NCBI RefSeq assembly: GCF_009730915.1 | Contig: NC_052480.1 | Location: 1,922,001 to 1,986,000, forward strand | Direction of reading: 5' to 3' | Length of the DNA stretch: 64,000 bases | Origin: Dioscorea cayenensis subsp. rotundata | Lineage: Eukaryota > Streptophyta > Magnoliopsida > Dioscoreales > Dioscoreaceae | Shown: in pieces, positions 23,161-56,892 of the stretch | How the letters are laid out: every line of letters starts with the position of its first letter | Position numbering within the stretch: position 1 is the stretch's first letter | Position numbers and translations under genes: made by a program | Notes under the pieces: model-generated | Databases searched by the model: none | What the model was told of the DNA's origin: nothing | Seen by the model: only the letters and a program-made list of their open reading frames with translations

Positions 23161-23166
23161 TGTAAG

Positions 23167-23451
23167 TTAAGAAGAAATAGGAAGAATAATATTACCACAA
23201 GTGACTTGGGAGTTGAGGAACAAGAACCATGCAGAGCTTAACATGGAAACAACATGAAAGTGATAGTTTAAGGGATGACCTTCAATTGATACCTGCCATT
23301 TCCTGTTAGGGTGTTGGCCTGTTAAATCAATCAATAATTCCAAAATTGAAGTAATGGTCATGTACTTATGATTTGATTCCTTTTGTCTGTTAATTTGGGA
23401 GATATAGAACCAGAGAATAGATACTGTACCTTGTTCTTCAGTAGCAATCAT
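23167..23451 (-). CDS. Small unrecognised open frame
   Basis: A 94-codon frame beginning MIATEEQGTVSILWF. I do not recognise it. Two stretches could be introns: GTACAG..TTAACAG would remove residues 8-45 and leave MIATEEQGQHPNRKWQ, which hints at a short spliced gene. There is no homology support. It may be chance, or the 3' end of an unseen transcript downstream of the HAD hydrolase gene. Confidence 0.15.
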   Translation of the reverse strand: MIATEEQGTVSILWFYISQINRQKESNHKYMTITSILELLIDLTGQHPNRKWQVSIEGHPLNYHFHVVSMLSSAWFLFLNSQVTCGNIILPISS

Positions 23452-24129
23452 TTACAGTTGCAGCACCTGTTTTTAATAAATGAATTATTAGGGTTTTAGA
23501 TTTATCTAATTAATCACAACTTAATGTATATTTCATTTAGACAATAAATAATGTTGCTTAAACTAAGCTTAATGCTGAAAGCATCAGAAGCCACCAGAGT
23601 GGTACTTTCTCTTTAGAAGTACATAGAAAATAAAATAAAGTACATGTTAATTAGGTCATACAACTATGATTGTACTTTGAAGTAAAGGAACCAATCAAAA
23701 ATGTCCCCACTTTCTTTCTCTACGACTTTAAGAAGATGTAAAGCCTTCTCTTCTCTCTATATATATAAGAATAACTTATGAAGAGAAAATCTGAGCTATC
23801 ATCAGAGTTCATAGATGAGGTGACAGATTATTAATAAATTAATCTTTAGGTAATCACCACTCTTTAAAAATTGAGGATTAGTTTAATGTAATCACTATCA
23901 TATGACATATTGACAGAGTGATGCATGACTCATTCACAATTAAAAAAATATGTATGTATATCCTGTTTATTTGTTTGTTTCTAATTAAAAAAGGTCTGGA
24001 TGTGAGCCTAGAACCACATACATCACAGTGACCAAACAGGCTTAAACTTGATGTTAACTTCCTATTTACCATTAACCAAGTGATAAGATTTTGTTCAAGC
24101 ATGACTAGAAGTCTTACCGTTTAAAGATA

Positions 24130-27100
24130 TCAATTGTCTTGAGTGACTAATCCAATTCCTAACAAGGATAGATCCTCTTTCAAGGTATCTGCATTTTTGA
24201 ACTGCAGGCCCACCATTCCTGCATTTTTTGCTGCCTCAACATTTGTGATCCTGAGATGACCAGAAAACCAATTGAAAGGAATTACAGAAAAAACTGTGTT
24301 CTATAACATAAGTGGATTCCTTTTGGGTTTAATTATGGAATAAACAAACATCTTAGGTTTATGATTAATGGCCCTGGATCAATTTCAAAGATCTCTATCC
24401 ATTTCTTTTCTAAAGTCATGAGTAACTGATGATTTCTAGAGGCTTTTCCAAAATTGGGAAGATAAAGACATCAATCAAGTTCAATACCAAAGGATTGTAA
24501 ATTTTCTAGATGTCAAGGGAAACATCAATAAATATGTTTGTTAGATCATTTGATTAGACCAAGGAAAGGTGGTTCTTTCTTTCTGAGTGAAAAGGGACAA
24601 GGGATGAAGGCTGAGCACAAAAACATATTCTGATGAGAACAAAGGTATCAAGTAATACCTATCATCAATGAATACACAATTTGCTGGATCAACACCCAGT
24701 CTTGTCAAGACTTCAGCATAAGAATCTGGAGCAGGCTTCCTTTTTCCTGCTTATGAAGAAGATGTCTTCATAAATTAGTATTCAGTTTATTAAGTCCATG
24801 AAATGCAGAAAAATTCCTTTTGTGGATAAATTTACTATTCTGGATCTCTGGTAAAAGTAGAAAGAATACTGTGAATTCACTGGAGTAAGATGCATAGGTA
24901 AAACATGAATTATTAGGCTGTGGCACAGTATATTAGAAGCTGTTTCCATGCTGGGTGCTAGTTCGAGGGACCTGAGGGAAAAAATATTCATAAGGTGAAA
25001 AAATTTTACCAGTTAAACAAGAACAGAATGTCCAAGACAGATACTTGGAAAGTTTCAGTTTCTCTTCAATCAGCGTATACCTACAGGATGTTACAAATGA
25101 AGATTGAATTATTTCAAGCTCAAAAGGTCAAAAGAATAAATTACACAACCTTTTTACCAAATTGGGTAATTTGTGAAAGCATGCATTTCATAGTTGTTTA
25201 GCTTCAAATTCTGTAGCAATGCCTCAATGCCATTTATATAGCAATATCCCCTAACCATGCATTCTTTGAGACCTGCAAAAAAACAATCCAGCTTGTTGAC
25301 ATCAAAATGTCTGGATGCACAGGAGCAAATTTCAATTAGATTCAATGATTTGAGACACCATAATGATTCAAAAATTTATTTAAAAAAAGAAAAGAAAAGA
25401 AAAAGGATTCAACCTTGGAAAGCTATGGATGTTCCTAAGATATTCTATTTAGTATTTTAGTGTATCACATAGTGCAGACAATCAATCTTGAAGACAAATG
25501 ATTATAAGAACTGTCAGGTGACAAAACATTCACTGATGAAATGCATTCAGAAAAATATGGGAAACACTGAAAGAGGAAGAAGACTTGATGAGTCTTAATA
25601 TTCTACACACACACACACAAAGTATATAAATTTATGAACAAAACATCTTCAAAATTTAGTTGATCTCTCTAGTCTCTAGACAGTTAGAAATTTCATTACA
25701 TCCTATAATTCAGCCATTCTTTTGCATTTCATAGTGTTGCTTTCTTCTAAGTAAGAAGGGTTGAAATTGTAATATGATGTTTAGCTATCAAGGCTAGATC
25801 TAGTAGTTCTCACCTTCCAAATCAAAAGGTCTTCCATCTTTGAAGAATTTTATTAGCTAGCTCCATCTGAAGCAGAAGCGAAGAGAGCTTGTTAAGTCAA
25901 TTTGTCACCTAGTTCACTTAATCTCGAATATCAAAGATTCAATCTATCCAAAGGAAAAAAGAAAAAGAAATTTATCAAAATTTCATGAAGATGTAACAAA
26001 ACAAAAAACGAGGAATATAAAAGAGAACAAATTAATAGAGTCAGAAAATTTCACAAGTAAACGACAGCTAAACTATATCTATTCTATGAAAAAAATTAGT
26101 TTTAGATCCACAAGACTATCAAATGGGACTTTATGAAGTAACCAGAACTGCAATTCCTTCTGTGACATCTCTGGGCTTTCGAGTTGAATTTGTGGTCAAA
26201 AGATGGAAGTTTCCATAGACTTAAATCCAATTCTTCTATCATGTTGTTCCTTCGCACATTACTGCTACTCAAATTGCAATCAATCAGATGCACATCATGC
26301 AAGAACCAAATGAACAAAAGATCATATCCCACCACATCAAATTAAAAAAGGGAAAAAGAACAATTAAAAGCAAGGTCACATTGAAGAGATGCTGGAGGTA
26401 ATATGGTTATTCTCACTAAACTTTAAATATCAAAGAACTGGTGTTCTGATCCTTCTTTCCAAAATTACTATGCATACCTCACTGATCAGCCCTTCCTCAA
26501 ATTCAACCCATGCAGTGGGGTGCTTTTCTTCCAAAATTTCTTTCAATGACATTCTGCAACAAAAATTTCACCAAACGAGCAGAGTAAGAAGCCCATAGCA
26601 CGTACTTACAAATAAAGAAAATACTGGAAACTCTCAAACAAAAGAAAAGGAACATTTTGAAAGCCCATTGTGAAACCATAACCAAAGTTGAGATTCATTC
26701 ACTAAAAGTAGTCACTTTATGGAATAGAGAAGTATATAATTAAGAGTACATATAAGTATATATATTGAAAAAATTCCATAATAAACATCAAATTACATAC
26801 AAATAAGAAGGAAGTTATCAATAATCCCAGTCCAATTCATCAATATGCTCAAACCAAACATCTATCCAAGAAATTCAAAACCTTTCAACAATAAACAACG
26901 CAATAATCGAAATCCTCGTCATCCATTCATCAATTAATTCATAGCAAGCAATCCAAAATCCACAAGTTAATCCAATCAAGCAAGAGCACAAGACATAAAA
27001 GGGAATGGAGAAGAGGAAATCAGAAGGAAGCGAACTTGAAAAAATTGGGGACATCTTCGTAGAAAGGATCGCGGACAAGTGTGTCCATGACGTCGAAGAG

Positions 27101-27220
27101 CAAGATGGGCAGCTTCCGTGAGGCCATGGTGGGGGAGCAGCTGGTGGTGGCCATGGATCTCGTCCTCGAGAGGAGCTTGGGGAGTGGAACTGTGGCGCTT
27201 GGCTGGAAGAGCAATGCCAT
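24130..27220 (-). CDS. HAD-superfamily hydrolase, plant organelle-type
   Basis: Seven minus-strand exons: 27220-27036, 26553-26478, 25866-25814, 25272-25158, 25080-25010, 24746-24659 and 24250-24130; about 235 aa. The HAD fold is shown by motif I LLFDVMDTLV (nucleophile Asp; Met replaces the usual second Asp), the motif II region HAFTNYPIW, the motif III lysine in GKRKPAPDSY and motif IV VFIDDR. A close plant homologue carries LPILLFDVMDTxVRDPFYED. The Ser/Thr-rich N-terminus with few acidic residues suggests a transit peptide (inferred); internal Met codons could give a shorter form. Substrate unknown. Exon 25814-25866 has one surplus A in the AAAA run (25848-25851): 53 nt where 52 restore ELANKFFKDGRPFDLEG. 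The gene is arranged head to head with the decayed dehydratase copy at 28103. The donor of exon 1 (GTTCGC) is weak but is required by the frame. Confidence 0.88.
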
Positions 27221-27429
27221 TGAGAGGAAGAGGAGGAGACGAAGAGGAACGATGACGGGTTCGTCGTCTTCGTTATTCCTCGAAGTTTTTGCGAAGACAC
27301 CCCTGAAAAAATGTCTAATTTTGATTGGTTAAATAATTTGATGAATAATGGTAAATTTTTCAGATGTGATTTTTTATTTACTAAACAAAATATGAAAAAA
27401 AAAAGAATAATTTTGCCGTTGCTTAAGAT

Positions 27430-28102
27430 GAAAAATACACGGTTTGATTAGCAAAATTGAAATTACCATAACTAATGGTAATTCGTGGATGGGCAGTTTG
27501 TTGGTGGTAATATTTTCAATTTACTGTCTTGTCGTAATATGAAAAAATTAACACATTTGGACTGGTGACATTGGTAATATTAATAATAATCTATGATTAC
27601 TAACTTTAAAATATTATTAAAAATTATATTATCATCAAAACAGGTGACTATTTTCGATCACGTAGTGGCTAGTTGGTAGTTTGAAATTTTTTCTAGATAA
27701 ATATGCTACAGCATATTTTATCAGTTGAATAAAAAAAATTAATTTTGAATGATTTTATTTTGGGAATATCTTTAATTTTTAAAAATTAATTTATTATATT
27801 ATAATTAATTTTTTTCATGCATAAAATTTTATTTTATCTTAACTTTCAATTTATGCAAAATTTTAGATATAAAAGTTTTTTTAAAATTATAAAATTAAAA
27901 TTTTATTTTTTAATTTCAAAATTAATTATTTTATCCTAAAATTTTATTTTATTTTATTTTTAATTTAAATTTATTCAAAAATGTAGAGATAAGAGTATTT
28001 TAAAAATTTTCACACATTACTAAAGATGAGTTCTCAACCAAACACCACAACATTTCTGGGTCTATAATTGATCTCATTATAGTGAATCAAACAACCCTTA
28101 TA
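27430..28102. mobile_element. GGTAAT-rich MITE, copy A
   Basis: Between the HAD gene and the dehydratase remnant. Rich in GGTAAT/ATTACC words. The left end reads ACGGTTTGATTAGCAAAATT; the right end, read inward, GGGTTGTTTGATTCACTATA. These ends match copy C (37086-37655), which sits in the same place in the other duplicated unit. No coding capacity. Exact ends are uncertain. Confidence 0.6.
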
Positions 28103-28246
28103 GGTATTAAAAAGTAAATTTTAAAATTTAATTTACTTTAACAAGGGTTTAAAACAAAAGAAAGATAGTTTTGAGTGATGCCAACCGTTGATTCATCCAA
28201 CTCAGACGCCGATACAAACATGACTCTTTAGTTTTATTTTTTCTCT
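28103..28246 (+). pseudogene. Remnant of a second isopropylmalate dehydratase gene, 5' piece
   Basis: Matches the promoter and 5' leader of the intact gene at about 37790-37955; shared words include GTGATGCC(A)ACCGTTGATTC and the ACGACTCTTT-like stretch before the CT tract. The match stops inside the CT tract, where the copia fossil begins, and resumes at 33001 with the next bases of the parent sequence. It contains no coding exon. Confidence 0.8.
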
Positions 28247-31200
28247 TGCCTATAAAGAAAGTAGGCACGAGATGAACAAGCATATAGAGGAGAACTCCAT
28301 TGTGTAAGTGGCACTAAGATTGTCACAATAGACTGTGGGTTGAGCTGGAATGGGAAGATGTAATTCTGAAAGTGACGATTAAATCTAAGAAAGTTCAGAA
28401 ACTGTGGAAGCAATCGCACGATATTCAGCCTCGGTGGAAGAACGAGCCACTGTTCGTTGTTTCTTAGAGCTCCAAGAAATAGGAGTGTTGTCAATGCAAA
28501 TAATATATGCTGAAGTAGATGTCTTGTCATCCGGATTGCCGGCCTAGTCCGAATCAGAAAAACCAGAGAGCATAAATGTAGACTCATGATGAATATTCAA
28601 ACCATGAAAAAGCGTCCCTTTTAAGTATCTAAGAACACGCTTTAATGCAGTTTGATGATGTGTAGTAGGCTTGTGCATGAATTGAGAGAGCCGATTGACA
28701 GTAAAACTAATATCTGGACGAGTTAAAGCCAAATATTGCAAAGACCCAACAGTTTGGCGGAATTCTATAGCATCAACTACAACAGAACCATCATGCAATT
28801 TCAAGGAGACAGAAGTAGACAATGGAGTAGTGGTAGGTTTGGCTCCAAACATCTTGGTTCATTCTAAAATGTCAATAATATATTTATGTTGACAAAGAAA
28901 TAACCCTCTGGAGTGAGGTATGACATCAATTCCTAAGAAATAATTCAGCTGACCAAGATCCTTTAAGGAAAAACGTTTAGAGAGATCGACAATAAATTTA
29001 TTCATGAAAGAGGTAGAATTGCCAGTGAGAATAATATCGTCAACATAAACAAGCATATAGAGGAGAACTCCATCGCGATGGTAAATAAACAAAGAGGTGT
29101 CAGCAATGGAATTTTCAAAGCCAGAAGACAGCAAAAAAGAGCTTAAGGCACTGTACCAGGCTCGAGGAGCTTGTTTTAGACCGTAGATAGCTTTGTGCAA
29201 CTTGCGGAAAATTTGGCCTAGTCTTATCATTGAATAACGGTGGTTTTGCATGTATATATCTTCATGCATATCACCTTGCAAAAATGCATTATTTACATCA
29301 GATTAATGCAGTGACCGGCCTTGAGAAACCGCAACACAAAGAACAACGTGAACCGTGACAGGTTTAACAGCGGGACTAAATGTCTCAGTGTAGTCAAGAA
29401 CAGGTCGTTGGTGGAAACCTTTTGTGACTAAGCGGGCTTTATATCTGGATATAGAGCCATTAGAATCCCGTTTGATCTGAAATAAACATTTGCAACCAAT
29501 AATTGTTCGACCCAAAGGAGGTGGTACCAACTCCCATCTGTGATTTTTGTGTAAGGCATGAAGTTCTTCCAACATTGCGTTCTTCCAAGAAGAGTCCTTA
29601 ATAGCTTGAGTGGCACAGGACGGTTCCATTGGAGGTGTCATAGGATGTTTGATAACTGAATAAAGGTGCTTGGGCTTGAAAATATTATTATGAGAATGAG
29701 TGATCATGGAGTGTGTTCGAGTAGAAATATGAGGAGAGATAGGAGATGGAAGGGATAAGGAACTTACTTGAGAAGAATTTCTATCATCCAAGGACACCAC
29801 TTGCTCAGTTGAAGATGATGATGAAGAAGCAGGTTGGGATATAACAAGAGTGGAATAAGTTGTCATTGGAAGGTCTGAAATGGAGCAAAGAGAAGATAGA
29901 TCATAATGAGAAGAAGAGGAAGATGATTTAGCATTGGAATATGGAAAGTGATGTTCCACAAATAAAACATGACGAGAGATAAAAATTTTATTAGTGGTGG
30001 GATCAAAACATAAGTAGGCACTTTGATTGTTTGAGTAACGACGAGAAAGACACATGATTTGGATTTAGCGTCAAGTTTATGTGAAGCATATGGCCTCAAC
30101 CAAGGATAACACAGACAACCAAAAACTTTTAGTTTGTTATAATTTGGTTGCAGGTGAAAAAGGCACTCAAATGGACTTTTGTTTGAGAGAACTCGAGATG
30201 GTAATCGATTGGAAAGATAAACCATGAGCTTTAAAAGCATAAGACCAGAAACTTAATGGTAAGGAAGCCTGATGCAATAGAGTGAGACCAGTCTTGACTA
30301 TAGTACGATGTCTTCACTCAACAATGGCATTGTGTTCAGGAGTGTATGGAGGAGTTTGAAAATGTTGAATGCCATTAGAGGAAAGAAATAATGTTAACTT
30401 GTTGTATTCTCCACCACAGTCAGAAATAGAGTGCCAAGATAGAAGTTTTGAAGTATTTTTCAACCAAAGATTTGAATTTAGGAAAAATAAGGTAAATATC
30501 AGTTTTGAATTTCATTGGATAAATCCAAGTGTATCGAGTGAAATGATCAACAAAAGAAACATAATATGTGAAACCATCAATTGATTTGACTTTGGCATGT
30601 CCCCATATATTAGTGAAAATAAGTTCAAGAGGAGAAGAACTAGTGAGAGTTAAATGAGAAAACGGAAGTTTATGCATTTTGTTACTAGAACATGAATGAC
30701 ACAAAGAATGCACATTAAAAGAAGTACATGGTAAAGAACTTGAATGAAGTAAATAACGCAGAGTATCAGAAGATGGATGGCCGAGACGTTGATGCCAAAT
30801 GGAGGATGGTGCTTTAATGCCAACTAGAGCTAGTGCATGAGCCTGAATCAATGGTTCACCAGGTGGAAATAAGTACACACCATTGCTACTCCGGCCTTGA
30901 GCAAGTGGCTGCCCCGTTTGAAGATCCTTTACCAAATAAGAGGATGGAAAAAATTCCACAGAAACATAATTATCTTTAGTAAATTTGTAAACAGAAATAA
31001 GTTTTTGACTGACTTTCTGGACACATAGAATGTTATTAAAAGAAAATGAATGAGAATTAGAGAGAATAGTTTTAGAACCAGTATGTGTAATGGAAAGACC
31101 TGAACCATCTCCAATGAAAAGTTTCATCCGTGCTGCCATATGGTTTAGGAATGTTGAGTTGATGAAGATCAGATGTGACATTGTGAGTTACACCGGAGTC

Positions 31201-32991
31201 AAGGAGCCAAGAGGAATTATTTGCAATAGTAGAGATTGGAGGCATTGGAGAAGAACCATTGGAATGAGCAGATACATTGTGTTCAGTAAAATGAGAATGT
31301 TGAATGCGAGGTTTAATTTTAAAGCAATTTTTGGCAGAATGTCTCGCTTTTGTCACAAAACTGACAAATGGTTCGAGCTGTCATTAGATTGCCATTGAAA
31401 GATCTTTTTTGAAATCTAGCACCACTAGAAATTGACTTAGGAAATGAATTTTGATTACTTTTGTTGCCTTTGCCATGTTGATTAGGTAATCGAGTAGCCA
31501 TATTTGCAGTTGGAATAAGGTAATCTGATGCAACCTCTAGTCTTTTGAGAAAAATTTCATAATCAACCATTTTTTCCATTAGTTCTTCAAAGGAAATTGG
31601 AGTTTCTTGAGCACAAATACCGGTAGCTATCTCTCTGAACTCAGGAGCAATGTCATCAAGCCATGGATAACTAGATCATCCTCAGAAATTGGAGAATTAA
31701 TTAGAGCCAAATCATCAGCAACACATCGAAACACTTGAAAGTATTCAGAGACTGACTTTGTTCCTTGTGGTAACATGAGTTTCTCACGTAAAGACATCAT
31801 ACGGGAGCGAGATTTGTTGGCAAACATACGAGAGAGTTTTTGCCAAGCCTCATTAGAAGTTTTGCAATAGGCAATGAAAGGAGCAATGGTCTTAATTTGT
31901 AGTGGAAGCAATAATTCCATGAAGCAACAGTTGATCTTGTTGAACCCAAATTGTATAATCAGGATTAGGAATTAATGTAGGTATAGTAGAAGTGGGAGAA
32001 GGGATGGTTTGAGGAGGAACAGAGGTTGTGCCATCAACAAAACCAAGAATATTATGACTAAGAAGTAAGGAATGAAATTGTGCTCTCCAAGATGGATCGT
32101 TTTGATGGTTCAATTTAATAGGTAGTTGGGTTGTAGCATTGATTGATATCAAAGCAGAATTTAGGCTTTGCTTGGGGTGAAGGGTTATGGAGGGTTGGGG
32201 AGGGTTTTGGAGGTAAGGGTTATTTGAACCCTTGCTTGGGGTGAGGGGTTGAGGGGTTGAGGGTGAAGTAAAGGTTTAGGAGGTAAATGGAGGGTTGAAA
32301 ACACCCCATTTACCTCCAAATTGGAGGGTTGAGGAGGGTTCATATTTTTTTTATGACAAGAATGCCCTTAGTAGAATAATATAATAACCTAACAATAAAT
32401 AGTGTTTTTTCTTAAAATTATTATTTTTTAATTAAAAAATTATTATTTTGTTATTATTGAGTTTATATCTCAAAGGGTAAACATCCTATTTTGGTAGTAT
32501 TTTAGGATAACAAATATTGGAAGCATAAGACATATCAAGGATATTTTGGTAATATTAGCACAAACCCTTACTTTCTTTTACCTCCAATCTAAACACAAAA
32601 AGTTAAATAACCTTCCTTTACTTTACTCTTGCCCCAAGCAAGATATAAGTTCAACCCTTACCTTCCCTTCTTTTACCTTACCTTACTTTATGAACCTTCC
32701 CCAAACTCCATCCAAGCAAGGCCTTAATGATTGTGTAGAAGGAATAGGTGTGGATATAGAGATGGAGGACATTGTGGATCAAAGTTGTTAAGCAATATCT
32801 CTAATACCATAAAGAAAGTAGGCACGAGATGAAAATTAAGAGCATACTTTCTCATGTTGTATTGAGGTATTTATAGAATTTTACAATATGTGATGAGGTA
32901 GTTACATAGATGAGGCAGTTACAATTTTGAATTTTGATTTGACTTGGTCTAATCCTTTTCTTTTAAACTTTGCAATCATGTTTTCCCTCCA
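28247..32991 (-). mobile_element. Second Ty1/copia fossil (minus strand), broken
   Basis: Read on the minus strand from right to left: an LTR-like segment (about 32991-32809), a primer-binding site related to TGGTATCAGAG (initiator tRNA-Met type, near 32808-32797), gag (about 32152-31320), protease and integrase (about 31260-29870, with HQRLGHPSSDTL), reverse transcriptase (about 29830-28859, with the YVDD box) and RNase H (about 28850-28310). A 25-bp stretch ending in AGTAGGCACGAGATGAA occurs near both ends (28252-28276 and 32809-32833). The element sits in the CT tract of the dehydratase remnant and is itself invaded by a MITE at 32164-32723. It is broken in several places. Age: younger than the gene duplication, older than the MITE. 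Confidence 0.92.
32161..32726. mobile_element. PIF/Harbinger-like MITE nested in the copia fossil
   Basis: A 560-bp insertion (32164-32723) with inverted ends GGCTTTGCTTGG and GGCCTTGCTTGG, flanked by the 3-bp duplication TTA (32161-32163 and 32724-32726), the PIF/Harbinger/Tourist signature. The end motif GCTTGGGGTGAGGGGTT recurs about 65 bp inside the left end, so the subterminal region is repeated. Purine-rich on the left, pyrimidine-rich on the right, so it can fold back on itself. No transposase. Confidence 0.8.
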
Positions 32992-33000
32992 ATAGCCTAC

Positions 33001-33430
33001 TCTCGGCTTCTCGAGCTCACCTTTGCCACCTCCAACCTCCTTCCATCTTTGAGTTCGTCAAAAATTAATTTATTGTTTGTTGTTCTTGCCGATTGTGTAT
33101 CTACCACCAATTGTAACTTCCCTGGCAGAATAGGACACAACGCATGCCAAATCTATCTTAACTTACCATACACCATTGCGGCGTCAGTGTATACAAGTTA
33201 TGTTACCAATCCAAGGGAGTTTTTGCATTAGTAAAAAAACCTGATGTGATCAAATTATACTTAAATTTTTATGAAAAACAATCTCATCTTTTGTTGTATC
33301 ATCACTTTTTTTTGTTAGTGCATGGTAAAATGATTATGGTGTTTGCGATTTTATATCACTTTGTTTTGTCATTCAGTTGTCTTTGAATAGTTTGTGAGGT
33401 GTTTGTGATCATATGTGTAGAGTTGTCAAG
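33001..33430 (+). pseudogene. Remnant of a second isopropylmalate dehydratase gene, 3' piece
   Basis: 33001-33047 continues the parent leader (37961-38006), then jumps within the word CCATC to the parent's last intron (43543) and continues through the last exon, the stop codon and about 200 bp of 3' flank (parent to about 43950). Some 5.5 kb of parent, including fourteen coding exons, is missing. The acceptor AG before the last exon is changed (GCCG for GCAG). The last exon still reads open (CVSTTNCNFPGRIGH .. NPREFLH) but has many amino-acid changes. Not expected to make a working enzyme. Confidence 0.88.
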
Positions 33431-34180
33431 TGGGTGGAGATTCACTAATGAATATATTCCCCTGCTTCAGCTTTGAATTTATAATCTCATCTCCAACTTT
33501 GCACCAACCTTGAACTCCAAGGGCCTCCTCCCCCAAATTCAAATTTAGGTATAATTTTTTTCCTCATTCCTATCCCCGTGGGGTTTCCTTGGGTTCAAAA
33601 TTTTCTTGACCATAATAAATTTTCTATAAACATAAATATAAAATATTATTATTTAAAATAAAATTTATAAAGTATATGGTCAAAATCTCAAATATATATT
33701 TGAGAATTGAATCAGAAAACACTTTTTTTTTAAATCAAGAAAGTCTCTTTAATCTCATAATAATCCCTAACTCAATTATAACTTATAATTAATTAACATA
33801 ATAAGATAATAGATTGAGATTAAATAATCTCTAACTCAATTATAATTTATAATTAATTAATATAATAAGATAATGGACTGTCAGACTATCGGACTGATCT
33901 ATTCTATTGCTTAATATTAAACATATCAAAGATATTATTTTTGACCATGTGTGTGCATATATCTAATTATATAAATATATTTTTTTTTTCAAAAATAGAT
34001 AAATATAGATTTCTTTTAATGGGGAGACTTGCTCTCTAAATTCTAATTTTAAAAAATGCAATATAGTTAATATAATTAAATATTTCTATTTAGTTTTTAA
34101 ATAATCCTCATTTAATTACTAATAATTTGATAATTAAATAAACTATATGAGCTTATTTTACCTTCTATTTACATATTTAT

Positions 34181-34214
<34 letters not shown>
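33431..34214. other. AT-rich spacer with degenerate repeats
   Basis: No gene. 33460-33600 carries CCCCTG/CCAACTTTG-rich DNA similar in style to 34670-34820, perhaps the flanks of one old degenerate element. Low-complexity A/T tracts fill the rest. Confidence 0.4.
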
Positions 34215-34217
<3 letters not shown>

Positions 34218-34617
34218 GAGAATTAGTTATAAACCTCTCAAAAGTTCATATTTATCCTTAGAAAAAACATAATTGTATATATACCCCTGTAAAATATAGG
34301 TAATTGCGGATATGCCCCTATTGTTAGATTCTGTTAATCAAACTTAATTAACTATGGTTATAACTTAGATTAAGATATGCAAAAGGTATAAAATAACCCT
34401 TGTACAACTTAAAAAACTTTTCAAGGGTATATATGCAACGGTATAATGGTAATTTTATATATTTGTTGTTTGTTAATGGATGGTTTTTCAATTAATTTGA
34501 ACTCAAGGGTATATACGCAATTATGTATATTATTCAAGGGTATGTATGCAATTAACTTTTATTAAGGGACAAATATGCAATTTCAAAATTTTTTAGAGAT
34601 ACACCTGCAAAAGCCCC

Positions 34618-34618
<1 letters not shown>
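34215..34618. mobile_element. MITE-like element flanked by (AT)n
   Basis: About 400 bp with imperfect inverted ends. The left reads AAGGAGAATTAGTTATAAAC, then CTCTCAAAAG and CATATTTATCCTTA. The right, read inward, is AGGGGCTTTTGCAGGTGTAT, then CTCTAAAAAA and GCATATTTGTCCCTTA. (AT)n arrays lie on both sides, so it probably went into or created a TA-rich site. No coding capacity. Confidence 0.55.
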
Positions 34619-34648
<30 letters not shown>

Positions 34649-35489
34649 ATTTTTAAATTAAATATTTTATATTTTGGGGTCAGAGCAGGGTAGGAAGAGG
34701 AGGGCTATTCTCTAGCTTTGTCCCCAACTCCAACGGAGAATTATATTTCTGTCCTGACTCCAATTTTCAAAAATTATATTCTTTTCAGGTCCCATTAGGG
34801 TGGGGAATCTGGTTCTCCAATGAAAGCCTTATTTTTCATGTTAAGAAATAAGATTAACATTATCAGGAGAAAACTAATTGTTATTATAACACTAATTTAC
34901 AAAACGGATAAGTACCATGATGAGTGATTAGACAAGTGGTTATGTAATGAATAAACAAAAAGTTGTGATTGATTCCAGTCCTCCTTTTATCTAAAATTTC
35001 TCATATACGTTTTATAATGTCATTTGATGACAGTACTACCTCACTATATGTTATGAAGGAAAGCTAGAAGCTCACCGTCACTAAAAGAACTAATCATAAG
35101 AAGGACAAGAAAAGCAAGAAAACAGAGAGAAGATGAGAAATCACTAGGCATTTCATTAATTCCTCTCGTATTTGAGTCATTGGTTATTTTAACTCTCAAC
35201 CAACGGCTAATGATCATGCTGAGTCACTTTGCACTATTACAACTCACTTGTTACAACCATTACAATGATGCCACCTTCTTAACCAACTGTAGCTTAACTA
35301 CCGAGTGAGAATGATTTATTTTTTTCTTGTTTTTTTAAATTTAAAATTACGTAAAGGGGTTTTGTTAAACCGGATGTATAGATCAGTAGGAAAAAAAAAT
35401 ATTTACATCATAATCGAGTTGGTTTTCTAAAACCCCCTATATATATTTATTTATATATGCTTCTAAAACGTAAAAATGTTGTAGTAATC

Positions 35490-35565
35490 TAATGATCTTG
35501 GGAAGCAGAACTATGGCACTTGGTCAGAAAAGCAATGCCATAGGGAGGAGGAGGAGACGAAAACA
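35490..35565 (-). pseudogene. Remnant of a second HAD hydrolase gene (exon 1)
   Basis: About 75 bp closely match the first exon and leader of the HAD gene at 27165-27240; shared stretches include AGCAATGCCAT followed by GAGGAGGAGACGA in the same orientation. The rest of the gene is not seen to the left. Its position, upstream of and divergent from the intact dehydratase gene, mirrors the intact pair at 24130-28246. Confidence 0.75.
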
Positions 35566-35569
35566 TTAA

Positions 35570-35959
35570 AGTGTCGTTTGGTTCATGATAATGATACATT
35601 ACCACATAACAAGATTACCATGGTAATATGAGTGGGAATTTTATATGGTTGGGAATATTGCGGTAATTTGATATGGTCATATTTGGTTGTGAACTCTTAT
35701 TACCGGGAATAGTTCATTACAGTGTTTGGCTGTCATGTTAATCAATTTGCTAAAATATAAAAAGTTATAAAATTACCACGGTAATCCAAGATAAACACCA
35801 AATTTGGTGGTAATAGGACTTTTTTAATAATATTTATAAGTTGGTAATGTGATATTACCATCCAGATTACCATCATTGAATGCTAAATGTGGTAATATTT
35901 TTAGATTAACACGTAACAAGTGGTAATCTTTCTACAATACCGCGAACTCAAATGGCCCT
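35570..35959. mobile_element. GGTAAT-rich MITE, copy B
   Basis: About 390 bp. The left end is GTGTCGTTTGGTTCATGATA; the right end read inward is AGGGCCATTTGAGTTCGCGG. Both are bordered by TTAA, consistent with a TTA or TAA target duplication of the PIF/Harbinger group. The inside is full of GGTAAT/ATTACC words, as in copies A and C. It starts five bases after the HAD remnant. Confidence 0.65.
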
Positions 35960-35961
35960 TA

Positions 35962-36442
35962 AGGCTGTATTTGATTACCTTTTTTCCCTGAGAAAATTTT
36001 TCACAAGTCATTTTTCAGCTAAATAGGTTGTTTGTTTGCCAAAATTTTCTGTGAAATTTTTTTCACAAACTCTATTATGTGACCCTATTTTTCCTCAAAT
36101 CAGTGGAAAATTTTTTCCTGCCTCCACTCTAAGAAAAGTTTTTCAGGGAAAACGTAAGGGGTTATGTGAAAAAATAACGTGCGATCATAATTAATAAAAA
36201 TAACTTTTCTTTTAAAAATTTAAAATAAAAGTTTTTTTTCCTTTTAATTTTTTTAAAAAAGATAAATTATATAGCTTGATAATATTTTAAATGAATTTAT
36301 CAGATTAGTGAACAAATCCCGCGGTGTTTTGATGGTAAGATTCAATTTCATGTAGCGATGTTTATAATTTTAATAATTTTTAAAAAATTTATGGAAAATG
36401 TGACTTTTTCAGGGAAAAATTAATGCAATCAAATAACAAATG
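35962..36442. mobile_element. MITE abutting copy B
   Basis: About 480 bp with inverted ends. The left has TGTATTTGATTACC followed by TTTTTTCCCTGAGAAAATTT. The right read inward has TGTTATTTGATTGC followed by AATTTTTCCCTGAAAAAGTC. Different family from copy B, which it touches. No coding capacity. Confidence 0.6.
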
Positions 36443-36569
36443 ATGTTTTTTCTAAAATACTCCCTCCAAAATACTCCTTGCTATTCGTCTAAATCTGAAA
36501 GCCTACTTGAAAATTGGAAGGGTTTGGACAAATATATAAGGCTCGATGACCATATTTTGGATAAAAAAA

Positions 36570-36985
36570 AAGGAGCCCGTTTTAAAAACGGGTCGGGTTT
36601 GATTTTCATTGTTAAAAACCGGGGCCAAGCCCAACCCGACTCAAATTTAAAAGTATATTTATTATATATATATATATTGTCATTTATTAGAATGGTTTGA
36701 ATTTTAATTATTGTGATTGAATTAAGATGTGCATTTGGTATTTTAATTTTAAAGTGTTTTGTAGAATAATATTTGGTCATGTTCACATATTAATATTATT
36801 GTTAATTTTTTATTTATTATTTAATGAAAAATCTATATGTGCAGGCCTTGGTTAAAGGTTTCATCAAATTTGGGCGGGTTCTAGCAAAAGTTAAGGCTGT
36901 ATTTTCAGGCCAGGCGGGGTTTGGATAAGCTTGAATTTTAGTAATTATGGATTTAACCTGCCCGGACCCATGGATAGGTCTAGGA
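36570..36985. repeat. Degenerate GGGTCGGGTT-type repeat
   Basis: Begins near ACGGGTCGGGTTTG and ends near CCTGCCCGGACCCATGGATA, a word pair common at the borders of degenerate plant repeats. A similar arrangement is seen at 57690-58100. Class not determined. Confidence 0.4.
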
Positions 36986-37085
36986 ATATAATTTAGTTTA
37001 GTTAAAATTTTTAAGAATTTTTTTTTTTAAACCCTCTTGTTTTAATTTACTATGCCGGTTAAAAATATCGATACGCGGACCTTTA

Positions 37086-37655
37086 GGGGCCGTTTGATTG
37101 GTAGTAATGTGAACATTACCGCCTGTTACGTGGTAATCTTTTCATATTACCATGTTTGGATTATTGGTGGTGGTAATATTGATGGTAATCTGTGATTACT
37201 AACCTTGGAAGATTACCAAAAAACTTGGTAATCCCATTACCACCAAAATAGGTGGCTATGTTGGATTACCAAGTGGGTGGTAATCTGAAATATTTTTTGG
37301 ACAAATATACCCTTTGTTTAAATATAATAATTTTCATACTTTATTTGTTGGATAAAAAAATTAAATTTAAATAACATTATTTTTGGAATATGTTTAGCTT
37401 CGAAAATTTAATTTTTTTATCCAAAATTTTATTTTATTTTAAATTTAAACTTGCATAAAATAGTAGACACCAGATGGTATTTTTAGAAAATTTAGAATAT
37501 CACCAAGTTGATTACTATGTAACATGAGTTTCAACCAAAACATGGTTATCGTGAATTACCATAACATTCCTTGGCATGTAACATTCCCGATCTTATTGCT
37601 AGCGATAATCTCAGTTACGTGATAATATATCATTCTGCATGAGCCAAAAGCATAC
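37086..37655. mobile_element. GGTAAT-rich MITE, copy C
   Basis: Starts GGGGCCGTTTGATTGGTAGT and ends near GAGCCAAAAGCATAC; many GGTAAT words. Positional counterpart of copy A, both lying between a HAD exon 1 and a dehydratase leader, so the insertion probably preceded the tandem duplication. The right end is only approximate. Confidence 0.55.
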
Positions 37656-38805
37656 TCAGGGAAATGTAATCTAAATTAAATATTTTAAAATTAAACTTTG
37701 ATTTTTTTGATGATTGTTTACTAATAATTTGTAAACATTAAAATTAATTTATTTATTAAAAATAATTCCATTTTTAATGTGATAATTTCGTTGAAAACTA
37801 TATGAATTTAAAAAGTAATTTTTTTAAAATTTAAATTATTTTAACAGGGGTTTTTATGAAAAGAGAGATATTTTACAGATGGAGTGATGCCAGCCGTTGA
37901 TTCATCCACCGCAGCCGCCAATACAAAACACGACTCTTTGGCTTTTTCTCTCTCGCTCTCTCTCGGCTTCTCGTGCTCACCTTCGCCGCCTCCAGCCTCC
38001 TTCGATCCCGATTCGCCGCCGTCGAGGGTTTCTCGCCGTCTCCGACCTATTTCAACGCCAAATCTGGTACTCAATCCGCTTGTTTAATTGGAATGAGGAT
38101 TCGAAAAATTGTTCTTTTTTTTTCCCTACTAGTTTTACTTTTAATTGGATTTTGTATGATAATTTGAAGAAAGTATAGAGGAATGATAGGTGTAGTTCTA
38201 GATGGATTTTGTATGATAATTTGAAGAAGAAGATATGGAGGAATGCTTATTGACAGTTGTTTGATATTGTCTCTATGATGTTCAGATGGTTAGTGTTAGG
38301 AATGGCTGTGACTATTTAAGAAGATAATGGCATGTATTGATTGTGTTATTGTATTATCATTTAAGGTGGGTGATCCGGCTTATGCTGTTTTGTAGAAGAA
38401 TTTTAGGATGTTCCATTGGTTTCTGCATGGCAACTATAGATTCCTAATCAATTGAAGGTCTTGTGTTTTGTCTCTGGCCATGTTTTTAGCAAAAGAGGGG
38501 TTTATCAAAAGTCCTTTTTGCAATAGAAAAGTGAAGCTTGGCCCAAAAAATGCTTTTTTGGCTTTTAATTTCCAAACTCGCACTTTTCTTTTTAAAGATG
38601 CCATTGGATTTCCCCTTATTTCTGGTGTATTTGTTTCTATCATGTTCTTCTAGTGGCATAACTTCTAACACTTATTGAAAGAGTAGTATATTTCCGGTTT
38701 TTTTTTTATTTGGTCCATCTTCTTTTTCTAGTTTAGTATGCTCATTTTTTGCCTTTTTCTGCATGGCAGAGGTGATCAAGTAAGAGGATACTACCAGTAT
38801 TAATA

Positions 38806-41800
38806 ATGGCTACAATTGCAATGACGTTGAGTCGTGTACATTTTGGTGGAAAGGTCCTGCTGCTGATTGACTATTTTAATTATCAGCTCATGAGCAAATA
38901 TGATATTGGTTTCCACTGAATTCCTTTTCCTTTCGCAGAGTGAATTAGGGGTCTCCTCTTTGTTTTCTCCTTCAACTATTGCCCACAGATGTCGGAGACA
39001 AGCATCAAACAAAATTCATGCAGTTATGACGCCCACACAGTCTCAACGTCCTCTGTCAACCACTGGTTCAGTTGGGTTCTTATACACTTTTAGCTTTCAT
39101 TAATTTTTTTTTTATCACTTAACTGTTTTTTGTATTGCTTAATTGTTAAGTGCTACCTTCTTTCTCCTTCCAGGTCAAGCATGGCATGACTATGACAGAG
39201 AAGATTTTGTCAAGGGCATCGGAGCGGTCACAGTTGGAACCAGATGAGAATGTATGGGTAAATATTGATGTCCTGATGACCCATGATGTTTGCGGACCAG
39301 GGACATTTGGAATTTTCAAGAAAGAGTTCGGTGAGAATGCTAAGGTACCGCATAACTCATGCCATTTTTAGGGGGTTTACTTAGAAGCATCTTTAGCCTG
39401 TATGTTGATTAATAAAACAATTCTTTTGTGAAAATGGCCAAAACCAGTAGTGAGCCTCCTAACACAAATAAAAGTCTTGACTTTAAATGAATTTTGGATT
39501 TATTTGTGGAGGAAATTCTCAGGGTTGGCTTTTTTTTATAATATATATATATATGTATATATACTACCTTATGTGAATCAGAGTAGACGATAATTCTCTC
39601 CCAGTTTCTAATTTTGAGCATGGAAAGCGGTTTGAGTTCTGTAAGCCTTTTTTACCAGAAAAGATAGTAGTGACATGCAGATAATGTTCAATTCTTATGC
39701 TAGTTTTCTGTACTTGTTACATTATTATTATGTCATCACAGGTTTGGGACCGTGAAAAGATTGTTATTATACCAGATCATTACATATTTACAAACGATGA
39801 ACGTGCAAATCGTAATGTTGATATCCTCAGAGACTTTCTGCATGGAACAAAATATTAAGTACTTTTATGACATCAAGGATCTTGGTAATTTCAAGGTATT
39901 GTTTTCAGTCCTCTTTTGCTGGTTGATTCCTTTAGTTATTTTATGACTTTTGGATAAGACTTTGTGCCTTCTGAAGAGCTTGAGATGAATCATAAGGTGA
40001 TTATATTATGTTGCAGGCCAATCCTGATTATAAAGGGTGTTTGCCACATTGCTCTTGCCCAAGAAGGTCATTGCAGACCTGGGGAGGTGCATTTTTATTA
40101 TAAATAACTTTTTTGTTAAACCACTGAATCACTGATAATAGTTGTATATATAACCCACTTTAGAGCCTCCTCTTTTGCGGATAGGTTTTGGTTGGCACAG
40201 ACTCTCACACATGTAATGCTGGAGCTTTTGGTCAATTTGCTACTGGTATTGGAAATACAGATGCTGGTTTTGTCTTGGGCACTGGAAAGCTTCTACTGAA
40301 GGTTACTATAGTCTTTATTATGGTTACCAATACCATACCTATTTTAATTGTAATTTTGAGACTTTATTATGGTATCACTGAGATATGTATATTCCTTTTT
40401 AGGTTTTTTTTTTTCAGGTTTTTTACCATACCTATTTCCTTACTAAATTCTTCAAAGTAATTTTTAATTTTATTGCTCAAATTACATTAACGCTAGGAAG
40501 CATAAGTAATTGTAACTCTGTGATAGTAACTATATTACAAATTTCTAACAGAATCGCATTTAGGTTTTGGTATTATTAGATTAGATTGTTGCTTGTTTTC
40601 TATTAGCTGATTGCTGTTTATTCAACATTGCAGGTTCCCCCCACTTTGAGGTTCATACTGGATGGAGAAATGCCTGACTATCTGCTGGCTAAGGATTTGA
40701 TTTTGCAAGTAAGTTTAAGTGATCTTGTGGATTCTTACTTCATACTGCTTTTTGATGAACTTTGATTCATCAGGTATGTTTGCTTTCTAATGATATTGGC
40801 CTTCTTGCTTACAATTATTTATCTGAATTTCTTTCTAGTGTCTTTAGCTGATGCATATTGTGCAGATCATTGGTGAAATAAGTGTCTCTGGTGCAACATA
40901 CAAATCCATGGAATTCATTGGTTCCACTGTTGAAAGTTTGTCAGTAAGTGTGTGCATGTATATGTTTTATTAATCTGTTGTCTCGAGGTAACTTTCTGCT
41001 TATATGCGTATTTTTTTTTGCCTTGAAGATGGAAGAAAGGATGACATTGTGTAATATGGTTGTTGAAGCGGGAGGCAAAAATGGGGTTGTCCCTGCAGAC
41101 CAAACTACTTTCAATTACCTTAAGGTATAGGAAGTTTCTTGAGAAACTTGGCTACATAGTTAATCTAGAACTCTAGAAGGCTAATATGCATGATCATTTC
41201 AATTATGGTTTGTGATTTCAATATTATCTGTAGGATAAAACATCCGTGGATTTTGAACCTGTATACAGTGATGGCAATGCAAGGTAATTTTTTGTTTCTT
41301 ATCTAAAGCTAGCTAATGCTTTTAGTGGTAAGCGCTCAAATTTTCTCCTCCGAGTTTGCAAAACCGCAGACACTGACTGATGCACCTTTATCTGAGATTT
41401 TTGGTCCAAGAATGAACCATAAATCTAGTGATGAGAATGATAATTAAATCCTTACCCGCTTCATCAGTTTTCAACTCTATTGGTTGCAATTATGTTGTAT
41501 TTTGCTTTTAAAATTTCCAAGGTTATGTTTTCACCCTGACTAAGCTTTGGATTCTTTTGGAGAAAATGTGGGAAACATGTGAACTGATCTGGGTAATTGG
41601 CTTCTGGAACTGCAAGAACTCTCTACCGTGGGAGTGTTTCTGTGTGCTTGTCTATTTGAAGACATCCCATTGAAATAGATGAATTGACCCATCAGAACTT
41701 TTACCTGTGAACTTTCTGGCATTATTATTAAAGAATCTTGACAGTGGTTTGAGTTTTCAGATGCCTGATAAATGACTTCCAGACTTGTTCTTCTTGGACA

Positions 41801-43728
41801 GTCTTCACTTGAGAATTTCTACTTTCAAAATTGCATTCACTTCCATAAATTGAATCCTTGTGATTCTTTTTGCACTGCCCCCGTTTACTGAAGATGCCCG
41901 CTTATTTGGACTATGAAATTCATTTAGCTCAATGCCTAAATACTGTCTACGAAACTCATTAGGGTGCCTTTAAACTATTCCTCTTTGATTGAAGATCATC
42001 ACCAATCCATATGCTGGTGTAAATTATATATATTCTTATTTCTTATCTCAGATTTCTTCAAGATTACAAATTTGATGTCTCCAAATTGGAACCGCTGGTT
42101 GCGAAGGTATATAACTTACAGATGTTAAATTTATATTGTTTTCGAAGTGGAAGTTTCTATTATGGATAGGAATTCTATTCATGTTCTAATGCTTTTTCAT
42201 TATGTGGCTCAAATTTCATAATTGTATATTTCCAGCCACATTCTCCTGATAATCGTGCTCTGGCAAGAGAATGCAAGGATGTGAAGATTGACAGGGTATA
42301 TATAGGTTCTTGCACTGGTGGAAAAACAGAGGATTTTCTAGCAGCGGCAAAAGTATTTCTAGCATCAGTAAGCAGATCTCATTTATGCACATACACTGCT
42401 AGATGCCTAGAATTAGTTTTCTATTATGCCTCAGTTATAAAATAACAGTTTGCATGAAATGACCAAAATAGCTTTTAGTTTTATAGTTAATCATGCTACA
42501 TCAAAAGTGCCATTTTGGAAGAATTCATTGTGGTTATCGCCGTCATTTTAGTTGGCGTCATTGAAGTTTTAGTGCTGATTTTTGTATTATTTGGTGCTAC
42601 TTGCTTCTGGGTGGCATCTACTTGGCAAAATCCTTATCATGCATCTTTATTCTTGTATGACTAATCTATTTGATCTCTCTTGCATCTAATGCTTTACCTT
42701 TGTTTGAGCAGGGCAAAAAAGTTAAAGTGCCGACTTTTCTGGTCCCTGCCACTCAAAAGGTAACAAACACATTGCTATAGCATTCACCTCAAAAATCTCG
42801 ATTATCACTTAACTGAAATGGCTCCTCGAAACTCTGTAGGTTTGGATGGATGTATACAGCCTCCCAGTTCCAGGATCTGGTGGCAAGACTTGCTCTCAGA
42901 TATTCGAGGAAGCTGGTTGTGATACTCCAGCCAGTCCTAATTGTGGAGCTTGTTTGGGTGGTCCTCGAGATACATATGCAAGGATGAATGAGCCTATGGT
43001 ATGAGAAATATTCACTAATCTGCTTTATTTTGAAAGCTAGTCCCACTCATTAAGTAAAAACACATTTATTTTTATCCCTCCAACCGATGTGGACTCATTT
43101 ATAATGATGAGCCTCGGTTTAGTACATCAACTGCTACATTCATTGGAAGGACTAAAACAAACAAATTGTTGTGGTTCATTGCCGAAATGAATATGTTTTT
43201 ACTTGAGGGATCACAAGTGTTTTTAACCCATTATAATTTACAATGTATCTTAGCTATCATTTAGATTAATTAAACACTGCAACCATCTTATATTCTTATT
43301 CATGGAGTCATTACTGATGAATTCTTCTTCATAGCAGAGGTCACATCTGAGCGCTATTACTGTGTTACTTTCTTGATTTTCATCTCCAATGACCCTCATG
43401 CATGCTCATTGTTCTAATTCTTGCTTTGCTGTATTAAAGAATAACAGTTACAATGTTTCATGTTCTTCATATCAATCATGAGTGATCATGTTTATATCTG
43501 CAACTGCGGATGATCCGGCAATGAACTCCCAGCTCATTCTGCCATCTTTGAGTTCGTCGAAGATTAAACTGTTTACTGTTTTTGCAGGTCTGCGTATCCA
43601 CCACCAATCGCAATTTCCCCGGCAGAATGGGGCACAAAGAAGGTCAAATCTATCTTGCCTCACCATACACCGCTGCAGCATCAGCAATATCAGGTTATGT
43701 TACCGACCCAAGAGAGTTCTTGCGTTAG
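38806..43728 (+). CDS. IIL1: 3-isopropylmalate dehydratase large subunit, chloroplastic
   Basis: Large subunit of the [4Fe-4S] enzyme that isomerises 2- to 3-isopropylmalate in leucine synthesis, and methylthioalkylmalate in glucosinolate plants; plastid stroma, with a separate small subunit. Fifteen coding exons start at 38806, 38939, 39174, 39742, 40017, 40185, 40634, 40866, 41029, 41234, 42052, 42236, 42712, 42840 and 43588; all introns are GT..AG; 507 aa expected against 509 in Arabidopsis IIL1. The first two exons are a Ser/Arg-rich transit peptide. Core marks: [40 protein letters not shown], and cluster ligands in [11 protein letters not shown] and [13 protein letters not shown] leader exon near 37870-38066 with an intron to about 38769 is likely. 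Exons 39742-39895 and 40017-40086 each hold one surplus base (near 39838 and in GGG 40035-40037), shifting frame inside [11 protein letters not shown] and [14 protein letters not shown] broken second copy lies at 28103-33430. Confidence 0.94.
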
Positions 43729-44797
43729 TAAAAATCTTACTAACCCGGTGTGATCAAATTCTGTTTAAATTTCTCTAAAAGACATTCTCACCTTATGTTG
43801 TATCATCACATCTTTATCAGTAAGAACAAAAGCAAATGCGGTATGCACTGTGACTACTTATAATAATCTTGATGTTTGTGATTTCATACCACTTTGTTCA
43901 TCAATGGTTTGTTTTTGAATAATTTGGGAGGTGTTTGTGATCATATAATGTGATTATTTAATAATTAAATGCGAGAAGTTATTACCGTTATAATAAGCGA
44001 GTGGTAAAATATTTGATTTTAAATATATATAAAAGTTAATAATTATATATATAATTTTTCCATATTAATTTATTGAATATGTGGAAAGTAACCCAATGAT
44101 AACCACTCAATGATAAGTGACGGTGGTTCCAAATTCTTTTGTTTGTTTATTTATTTTATTTTATTTGCTTTTTTTTTATGTCTTTATTGTTTAGAATTCT
44201 TTATTATTTATTTATTTATTTATTTTTATATGGTAACAAATTCTCGTTTCCTTCCCAACCTTTCCCTTTGCTTTCAGTGCTCCATCATCCTCTTCCTAAT
44301 TTCTCTTCATTTCTTTTGATTTTTCATCTCTTTTGCTTCGATTCTTCTCAGATTTCAATCTGGATTTGAGAAATCCTCTTTCCGATTTCTCGATCTCTCA
44401 AAAATTTGTTCTTTTTCAATCTAAACCGGAGCTGTTTTGAAGCTCTTTCAGGTTCGATTCTCTGTTCTTCATCTTTGTTTTCCTTTGATCTCGTTTTAAT
44501 CACTATTTCTTCAACCTTTCAGTTTGGAATTCCAATTTTCAGTTTGTGTTTCTCTAAATCTTTCAAAATTACAACTTTTTTTTTTTTTAGAAGTTTCAAT
44601 CCTTTTGATTCCTTATCTCTTAGGGTTTTACTTTCTGTTCTTCATCTCACTTTTCCTTTTTCATCTTTTCATCAGTACTTTCTTCAAACTTTCAGCTTGA
44701 AATTCCAATTTTCATCTCTGAATTCCATCTAGTTTTTCAAAATCACAACTTCATTTTGAGAAATTTTTCCAATTCCTTTCTCTCTAGAACCATCAAA

Positions 44798-45193
44798 ATG
44801 GCTCAAGAAAGCTGCAACCTTGACAAAGATGAACCTGAGATCCTTAAACCCTCACCTTCTTCTAATATCCCTCCAACCTCATCACCACCACCTTCTCTAT
44901 TCCTCAAACCATCACTAGACTACCAAATTCTCAGGCCTGACAAGCCAGAGAACTCCCGAGCACCGAAACCAGGCCGAGGACCTTCATCATCATCTCGGTT
45001 TGGCTTCCGGTGCTCGAGTTGCCAGAAAAGAGTCGGCCTCACCGGCTTCCGGTGCCGGTGTGGTGACCTCTTTTGTGCGAGCCATCGGTATTCGGATACC
45101 CATAACTGCTCTTTTGATTACAAAGCTCTTGGCAGGGAGGAGATCTCTAAAGCCAATCCTGTGATCAGAGCTGCCAAAATTATAAAGATATGA
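44798..45193 (+). CDS. AN1-only zinc-finger stress-associated protein
   Basis: 131 aa. The C-terminus is a full AN1 finger: [18 protein letters not shown], then [20 protein letters not shown] and the family tail [14 protein letters not shown]. Plant SAP proteins usually carry an A20 finger first; here the N-terminal half is Ser/Pro-rich ([15 protein letters not shown]) with no A20 cysteines, as in AN1-only members such as rice SAP15. The family binds ubiquitin or redox-regulates stress responses; the role here is inferred. The start at 44798 is preceded by CATCAAAATGG. A leader intron 44452-44787 (CTTTCAG|GTTCG .. TCTCTAG|AACC) is likely. A CT/T-rich leader spans 44400-44790. Coding exon single and unbroken. 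Confidence 0.92.
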
Positions 45194-56765: not shown

Positions 56766-56810
56766 TAATAAACATCACAAATGTAATTAATTAGAGGTGT
56801 GCACACATGC

Positions 56811-56892
56811 TGGGATGGGATTTAATCATTCAGCAGTGCACCTCATCCTCCTGGGATGGGATTTAATCATTCAGCAGTGCACCTCATCCTCC
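56811..56892 (+). repeat. Perfect 41-bp tandem duplication
   Basis: Two identical head-to-tail copies, 56811-56851 and 56852-56892, each beginning TGGGATGGGATTTAATCATT and ending CCTCATCCTCC. No mismatch, so it is recent or an assembly duplication. Confidence 0.95.

Follow-up and report, generated by a model that had tools for sequence, protein, structure and literature searches.

How a head-to-head gene pair comes to be separated, with a remnant of each gene lying between the two survivors, is the question raised by a locus of Dioscorea cayenensis subsp. rotundata that holds a HAD hydrolase gene and a gene for the large subunit of 3-isopropylmalate dehydratase (the dehydratase below). The window, that is, the whole stretch of 64,000 nucleotides analyzed here, corresponds to C10:1922001-1986000 (C10 being contig NC_052480.1) in an assembly of 584,211,761 bases and 2249 contigs, and all comparisons were made inside this one genome assembly; positions without a contig name are those of the window. 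The order along the window is HAD (-), dehydratase remnant (+), HAD exon-1 fragment (-), and dehydratase (+), the two retained genes now being about 11 kb apart. Unit 1 comprises the HAD side and the dehydratase remnant, and unit 2 the HAD fragment and the retained dehydratase. With a probability of about 0.8, a divergent HAD/dehydratase region would have been duplicated locally and then decayed, so that one gene survives per unit. A single direct duplication as the cause, and the order of the later events, are what we infer from these data.

The left half of the window was compared with the right half, and the limits of the matches were refined by pairwise alignment. Four collinear, same-strand matches beyond chance were found between the units, involving HAD exon 1 (27173-27243 and 35494-35561, 79%, E 3e-11 within the window), the dehydratase 5' flank and 5' untranslated region (5'UTR; 28107-28245 and 37808-37954, 79%, E about 2e-29), a further piece of the 5'UTR (33000-33047 and 37960-38007, 90%), and the last intron, last exon, and 3' flank (33040-33414 and 43539-43946, 73%, E 1e-62). 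The HAD and dehydratase matches reported in a first-pass annotation of this DNA are borne out in place and strand; the dehydratase pieces at 33000-33047 and 33040-33414, on the far side of a copia insertion (28253-32994), were not listed in it. Searched genome-wide, the HAD exon-1 match (E 1.7e-7) occurs at only two places at E <= 0.001, and the dehydratase 5' region gives five matches, all on C10: the two unit-1 pieces, unit 2, C10:1670184, and C10:1813948. The possibility that the remnants are dispersed repeats, which the annotation itself had raised, was rejected on these counts.

Between the units, Kimura two-parameter distances (K80) were 0.21 for HAD (68 sites), 0.15 for the 5' flank (139), 0.11 for the 5'UTR (40), 0.23 for the last intron (43), 0.24 for the last exon (136), and 0.22 for the 3' region (183), with standard errors of the raw differences of 0.03-0.06. 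This spread over six pieces is compatible with one age, without proving one. Published median KS values for D. alata are 0.064 against D. rotundata, 0.163 against D. dumetorum, and 0.389 against D. zingiberensis (PMC9010478); set beside the K80 range found here, they would lead one to expect the duplication in D. alata as well and a single head-to-head pair in D. zingiberensis. The similarity of the units could also be an assembly artefact, haplotype copies having been placed in tandem, as the N gap at 3872-4871 and the apparent one-base slips described below might suggest. However, the raw differences of 10-20% (K80 0.11-0.24) and the large differing insertions and deletions exceed allelic variation, making this explanation hardly credible. 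Duplication of the divergent intergenic region together with the whole dehydratase is well supported.

The upstream dehydratase has been lost through decay. At 33040-33047 of the remnant, the 5'UTR runs straight into the last intron, parts separated by 5.5 kb in the retained dehydratase. Six of eight letters agree between the sites that met at this junction, and about 5.5 kb was deleted at this short similar motif. Neither end of the junction is at a splice site of the gene as read, which indicates a genomic deletion. A retrocopy was considered and rejected, given that intron and flank sequence is present and the junction is not at splice sites; the remnant is therefore a DNA-level copy. The element within it is assigned to Ty1/copia, with RVT_2 and gag_pre-integrs domains and the target duplication GCCTA (28248-28252 and 32995-32999), and once it is removed in silico the joined flanks align to the 5'UTR of the retained dehydratase. 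Its downstream long terminal repeat is reduced to about 23 bp, followed by a 25-bp stretch repeated in the polymerase region (28276-28300 and 29049-29073, by eye). The same element carries, at about 32164-32723, an insert resembling a nested miniature inverted-repeat transposable element (MITE), with inverted ends GGCTTTGCTTGG ... CCAAGCAAGGCC and TTA on both sides (by eye).

Transposons are known to capture gene fragments, and the terminal part of the last dehydratase exon, with its 3' flank (matching 43664-43915), is present in a dispersed family on C18, C15, C19, and C1, the copies of which have flanks common among themselves. However, it is very improbable that the remnants of the window were brought in by transposons. 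The window remnant follows the order of the gene and lies outside the dispersed family, extending past it on both sides with different flanks; it retains the 5' part, an intron, and both flanks in order, and neither the HAD fragment nor the 5' region was found dispersed. In addition, in an unrooted six-sequence tree of the 3' region, built from the window's two copies and the four dispersed ones, the dispersed copies do not enclose those of the window (support 0.889). The remnant's branch in this tree (0.26) is twice as long as that of the retained dehydratase (0.13). A greater age of the dispersed copies relative to the window duplication was considered and dropped, as an unrooted tree with three lineages cannot order the events.

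Both surviving genes have plant-type introns. The HAD gene, the coding-piece limits of which were judged by eye, belongs to the HAD-IA family, its joined pieces passing TIGR01509 (51.5 bits, cut-off 29.4) and PF00702 (56.1, cut-off 26.4), and it presumably resembles the chloroplast FMN hydrolase of Arabidopsis. The retained dehydratase, with its start codon at 38806 and its stop at about 43727, was scored as joined exon pieces with X placed at two frame slips. It passed the dehydratase/homoaconitase large-subunit models NF001614 (450 bits, cut-off 385), TIGR01343 (408.4, cut-off 385.7), and PF00330 (279.7, cut-off 28.7), and fell below the cut-offs of narrower models from a library built for prokaryotes, namely TIGR00170 leuC (207.2, cut-off 560.25), TIGR02083 LEU2 (378.5, cut-off 610.65), and TIGR02086 IPMI_arch (376.9, cut-off 410.15). 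The name given here is based on the broader families and on matches to the isopropylmalate/citramalate isomerases 4kp1 and 4nqy (E about 1e-106).

In six-frame protein searches of the assembly (E <= 0.001), all six HAD matches fell inside the retained HAD gene, and 11 of the 12 dehydratase matches fell in the retained dehydratase, the other being in the last exon of the remnant; both genes are single-copy in the assembly at this search sensitivity. The first-pass annotation had described them as intact; they are the sole copies found, but as assembled they contain three one-base frame slips, near 25850 in the HAD coding piece 25868-25807 and near 39832 and 40035 in the dehydratase. Since both genes are sole copies, and since two more genes of the window appear split (by eye and from domain pieces, of which introns may account for part), these slips are probably assembly consensus errors and not decay, and both retained genes would appear to work. 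Similar single-base slips also occur at about 50400 and 55000, again in genes of otherwise functional appearance, and several are at single-letter runs.

Evidence for the original arrangement also comes from two other copies of the intergenic region, at C10:1670053-1670606 and, inverted, at C10:1813619-1814173. Along each copy, the HAD 5' flank (27304-27401) is followed by the dehydratase 5' flank (37784-37905) and then by intron 1 of the dehydratase (38084-38436), which carries an insert. Because both flanks are kept together there, the HAD and dehydratase flanks must once have been adjacent, a conclusion for which the window is not the sole basis. The HAD 5' flank is identical to the 1.67-Mb copy at 81 of 99 columns, scoring 104.9 against a maximum of 48.2 for 200 shuffles (E 4.4e-14 genome-wide), and the spacing of this copy leads to an estimate of roughly 0.3-0.4 kb for the presumed ancestral distance between the two genes. 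A search of the 2 kb to the left of C10:1670060 revealed no HAD exon 1 (61 of 100 shuffles scored as well), and no obvious inverted ends bounding the 1.67-Mb copy as one transposon were seen in one stretch, among the 25 of 41 pairs listed. The two copies are part of an inverted duplication of 12-14 kb (C10:1666962-1678665 and C10:1805690-1819877), which holds the HAD/dehydratase intergenic region together with an array of tandem units, each of roughly 700 bp, and is about 92% identical outside this array.

These copies also bear on the MITEs of the two units, which the first-pass annotation had taken as a landmark predating the duplication. That part of the account fails: the MITE1 site is empty, with continuous sequence, at C10:1670162-1670180 (ATTCGTGGAAAACTATAAG) and in unit 2 at 37786-37804 (TTTCGTTGAAAACTATATG), and MITE3 has its nearest relatives elsewhere in the genome. 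The 1.67-Mb copy is the stronger witness, the unit-2 site bordering a deletion, and neither C10 copy has a MITE between the HAD and dehydratase flanks. MITE1 is flanked by AATTCGTGGA and TATAGG, with no clear target duplication and about 4 target bases absent. MITE3 lies about 140 bp from the position of the MITE1 site in unit 2, and the two are 68% identical over 252 columns (76% when 166 ungapped sites in the first part are counted); no insertion site is common to the MITEs of the two units. The empty site, together with the closer similarity of MITE3 to copies elsewhere, indicates independent insertions, and we conclude that related MITEs entered each unit separately at different sites.

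Several observations weigh against the local-duplication reading. About 130 bp (37024-37078 and 37717-37789) are common to unit 2 and the 1.67-Mb copy and were not found in unit 1, the second piece being matched genome-wide at E 1e-5, which implies a history of more than one duplication step. Unit 2 and the C10 copies may descend from a common step, with unit 2 later losing the HAD flank that they keep; compared with the 1.67-Mb copy, about 105 bp of this flank are gone from unit 2 at about 37785-37790. Moreover, HAD is tied to unit 2 by 68 bp only, and the interval of about 2 kb between the units, slightly more than half of which is repeats, means that no duplication junction is kept. Within this interval, 33418-33552 and 34660-35302 had no dispersed match in the assembly. 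Of the 25 other copies of the segment 35303-35485, 17 stop exactly at 35485, and the segment is labelled CACTA-like because the three copies read end in CACTAC/GTAGTG.

Residual similarity to the interval between the units was sought with 15 segments on both strands (30 tests, 100 shuffles each; HAD intron 4 left out). The three best hits were on the strand opposite to that expected: 43947-44750 on the minus strand scored narrowly above all shuffles (48.7 vs 47.0), and HAD introns 1 and 2, also on the minus strand, were matched by 2 and 1 of 100 shuffles. In the expected orientation, the lowest counts were those of 43947-44750 (3 of 100), the region downstream of HAD at 22500-24132 (4), 44750-46000 (4), and HAD intron 3 (6). 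The best segments are all non-coding and mostly A+T-rich, and their scores are counted as chance among 30 tests, though weak traces of old flanks are possible.

The loss of the dehydratase from unit 1 is matched by a less certain history of HAD in unit 2. The 68-bp fragment aligns with a part of the unit-1 HAD gene made up of 23 nt of 5'UTR and 48 coding nt that include the start codon, and an in-frame stop is read by eye five codons in. It directly adjoins MITE2 on its right, and its left edge is 8 bp from the CACTA-like end. One explanation, to which we give an even chance, is one-sided loss, whereby the duplicated segment had its left limit within HAD exon 1 and its right limit about 220 bp beyond the stop codon of the dehydratase. 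The dehydratase alone would then have been doubled, with one copy decaying, and unit 2 would never have had a HAD gene. Consistent with this, the homology stops within HAD exon 1 (35494) and just beyond the dehydratase 3' end (33417/43946), and a search of 33418-35490 for seven further HAD pieces (exons 2-7 and the remainder of exon 1) gave no score above shuffles, each of the 14 tests being equalled by 19 to 92 of 100 shuffles. However, a transposon end 8 bp away would also fit a longer HAD copy cut by insertion and later deletion, and its position so close to a duplication junction would be a coincidence.

In the alternative, reciprocal loss, the whole pair would have been doubled and each unit would have lost the opposite gene. 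The collinear remnants of both genes, the presence in unit 2 of the HAD start with its start codon, and the adjoining transposon end are in its favour, but the search for HAD sequence past the 68 bp was negative and the MITE evidence offered for it was wrong; it seems plausible, at somewhat less than even odds. As for what each unit held before the loss, the dehydratase remnant keeps both ends of its gene, and unit 2 has 68 bp of HAD; that HAD was once whole there is a possibility we put slightly below an even one. Of the reciprocal loss described in the first-pass annotation, the loss of the unit-1 dehydratase and the remnants of both genes in direct order are borne out, a whole HAD gene in unit 2 being one possibility of two. 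One-sided and reciprocal loss fit about equally.

Local duplication and decay, as preferred here, probably proceeded as follows. An ancestral divergent pair of HAD and dehydratase large subunit would have been copied locally in direct orientation, the segment taking in the dehydratase in full, the region between the genes, and no less than the initial part of HAD exon 1. HAD was kept in unit 1, where the dehydratase lost about 5.5 kb by deletion and received a copia element in its 5'UTR; in unit 2, the dehydratase was kept, with HAD reduced to 68 bp beside a CACTA-like end and the HAD flank deleted. MITEs inserted in each unit independently. The ancestral head-to-head pair, the nearby direct duplication, the loss of the upstream dehydratase copy, and the survival of one of each gene about 11 kb apart are elements of the first-pass annotation that are supported. 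The features are listed in Table 1.

Table 1. Features of the HAD/dehydratase locus and related copies on other contigs (window positions unless a contig is named).
Feature	Position	Strand	Evidence or remark
HAD hydrolase gene, retained (unit 1)	24133..27303	-	Domain scores on joined pieces; sole copy found
HAD start codon	27220-27218	-	Reading frames
HAD coding pieces (n=7)	~27220-27027, 26561-26482, 25868-25807, 25275-25160, 25090-25015, 24751-24660, 24251-24133	-	
HAD 5' flank, left part of ancestral divergent intergenic region	27304..27490	.	27304-27401 also at C10:1670053-1670144
MITE1, between HAD and dehydratase flanks, unit 1 only	27491..28098	.	Empty site in other copies
Dehydratase remnant, 5' flank and start of 5'UTR	28099..28252	+	28099-28249: 126/162 columns identical to 37799-37956
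Copia retrotransposon inside remnant	28253..32994	-	Domains; 5-bp target duplication
Dehydratase remnant, continued	33000..33417	+	5'UTR piece 33000-33047; last intron, last exon, and 3' flank 33040-33417
Inter-unit sequence	33418..35493	.	Just over half dispersed repeats
Dispersed repeat parts	within 33553-34170		40 scored of 180 candidates
MITE between units	34217-34618		40 scored of 553 candidates
CACTA-like terminus	35303-35485		Matches 25 other places in assembly
HAD exon-1 fragment (unit 2)	35494..35561	-	56/71 columns identical to 27173-27243
MITE2	35565..35960	.	Inverted similarity to MITE3, 71-74%
Unit-2 stretch common to C10:1669921-1669976, not found in unit 1	37024..37078	.	43/56 columns, above all 200 shuffles
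MITE3, high-copy family	37083..37648	.	At least 39 other places, 88-94% identity (40 scored of 836 candidates)
Unit-2 stretch common to C10:1669990-1670062 (37717-37789), and dehydratase 5' flank	37717..37956	+	
3-Isopropylmalate dehydratase large-subunit gene, retained (unit 2)	37957..43946	+	Family-model scores; genome-wide search
Dispersed copies of dehydratase 3' end	C18:4005760, C15:5896705, C19:21388807, C1:7489969		

Elsewhere in the window, the run of 1000 N at 3872-4871, an assembly gap, adjoins copia-like polyprotein pieces at 44-3253, and a 41-bp unit is present at 56810-56892 as a perfect tandem duplication of two copies.

That a locally duplicated gene loses one of its copies (nonfunctionalisation) is a known concept, and the present locus resembles it in having direct-orientation copies, one of which is degenerate through deletion and transposon insertion. 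It differs in that the copied DNA takes in the region common to two divergent genes, and decay thereby also parts the neighbours. Reciprocal (complementary) gene loss has been described mostly after whole-genome duplication; here, likewise, one gene survives per unit, but the duplication is local and the loss of an entire HAD gene from unit 2 is only putative. In a literature search of open-licence papers, no report of this locus or gene pair was found, and absence from print is not claimed.

Such duplication and decay are common, as normal turnover in plant genomes, and the case is a clear but ordinary one of gene duplication followed by decay. Owing to the different decay of the two units, HAD and the dehydratase no longer share one intergenic region. 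A tentative further reading is that a compact divergent region, from which two unrelated enzyme genes were once driven, was doubled, and that complementary decay of the whole pair left one gene per copy, independently regulated, each with a private version of the ancestral region, which in unit 1 has a MITE inserted and in unit 2 has the HAD flank deleted. The two degraded copies at 1.67 and 1.81 Mb show the form of the intergenic region without the MITEs, and the locus offers a readable example of how divergent neighbours may be uncoupled when the region between them is doubled and each version then decays in its own way.

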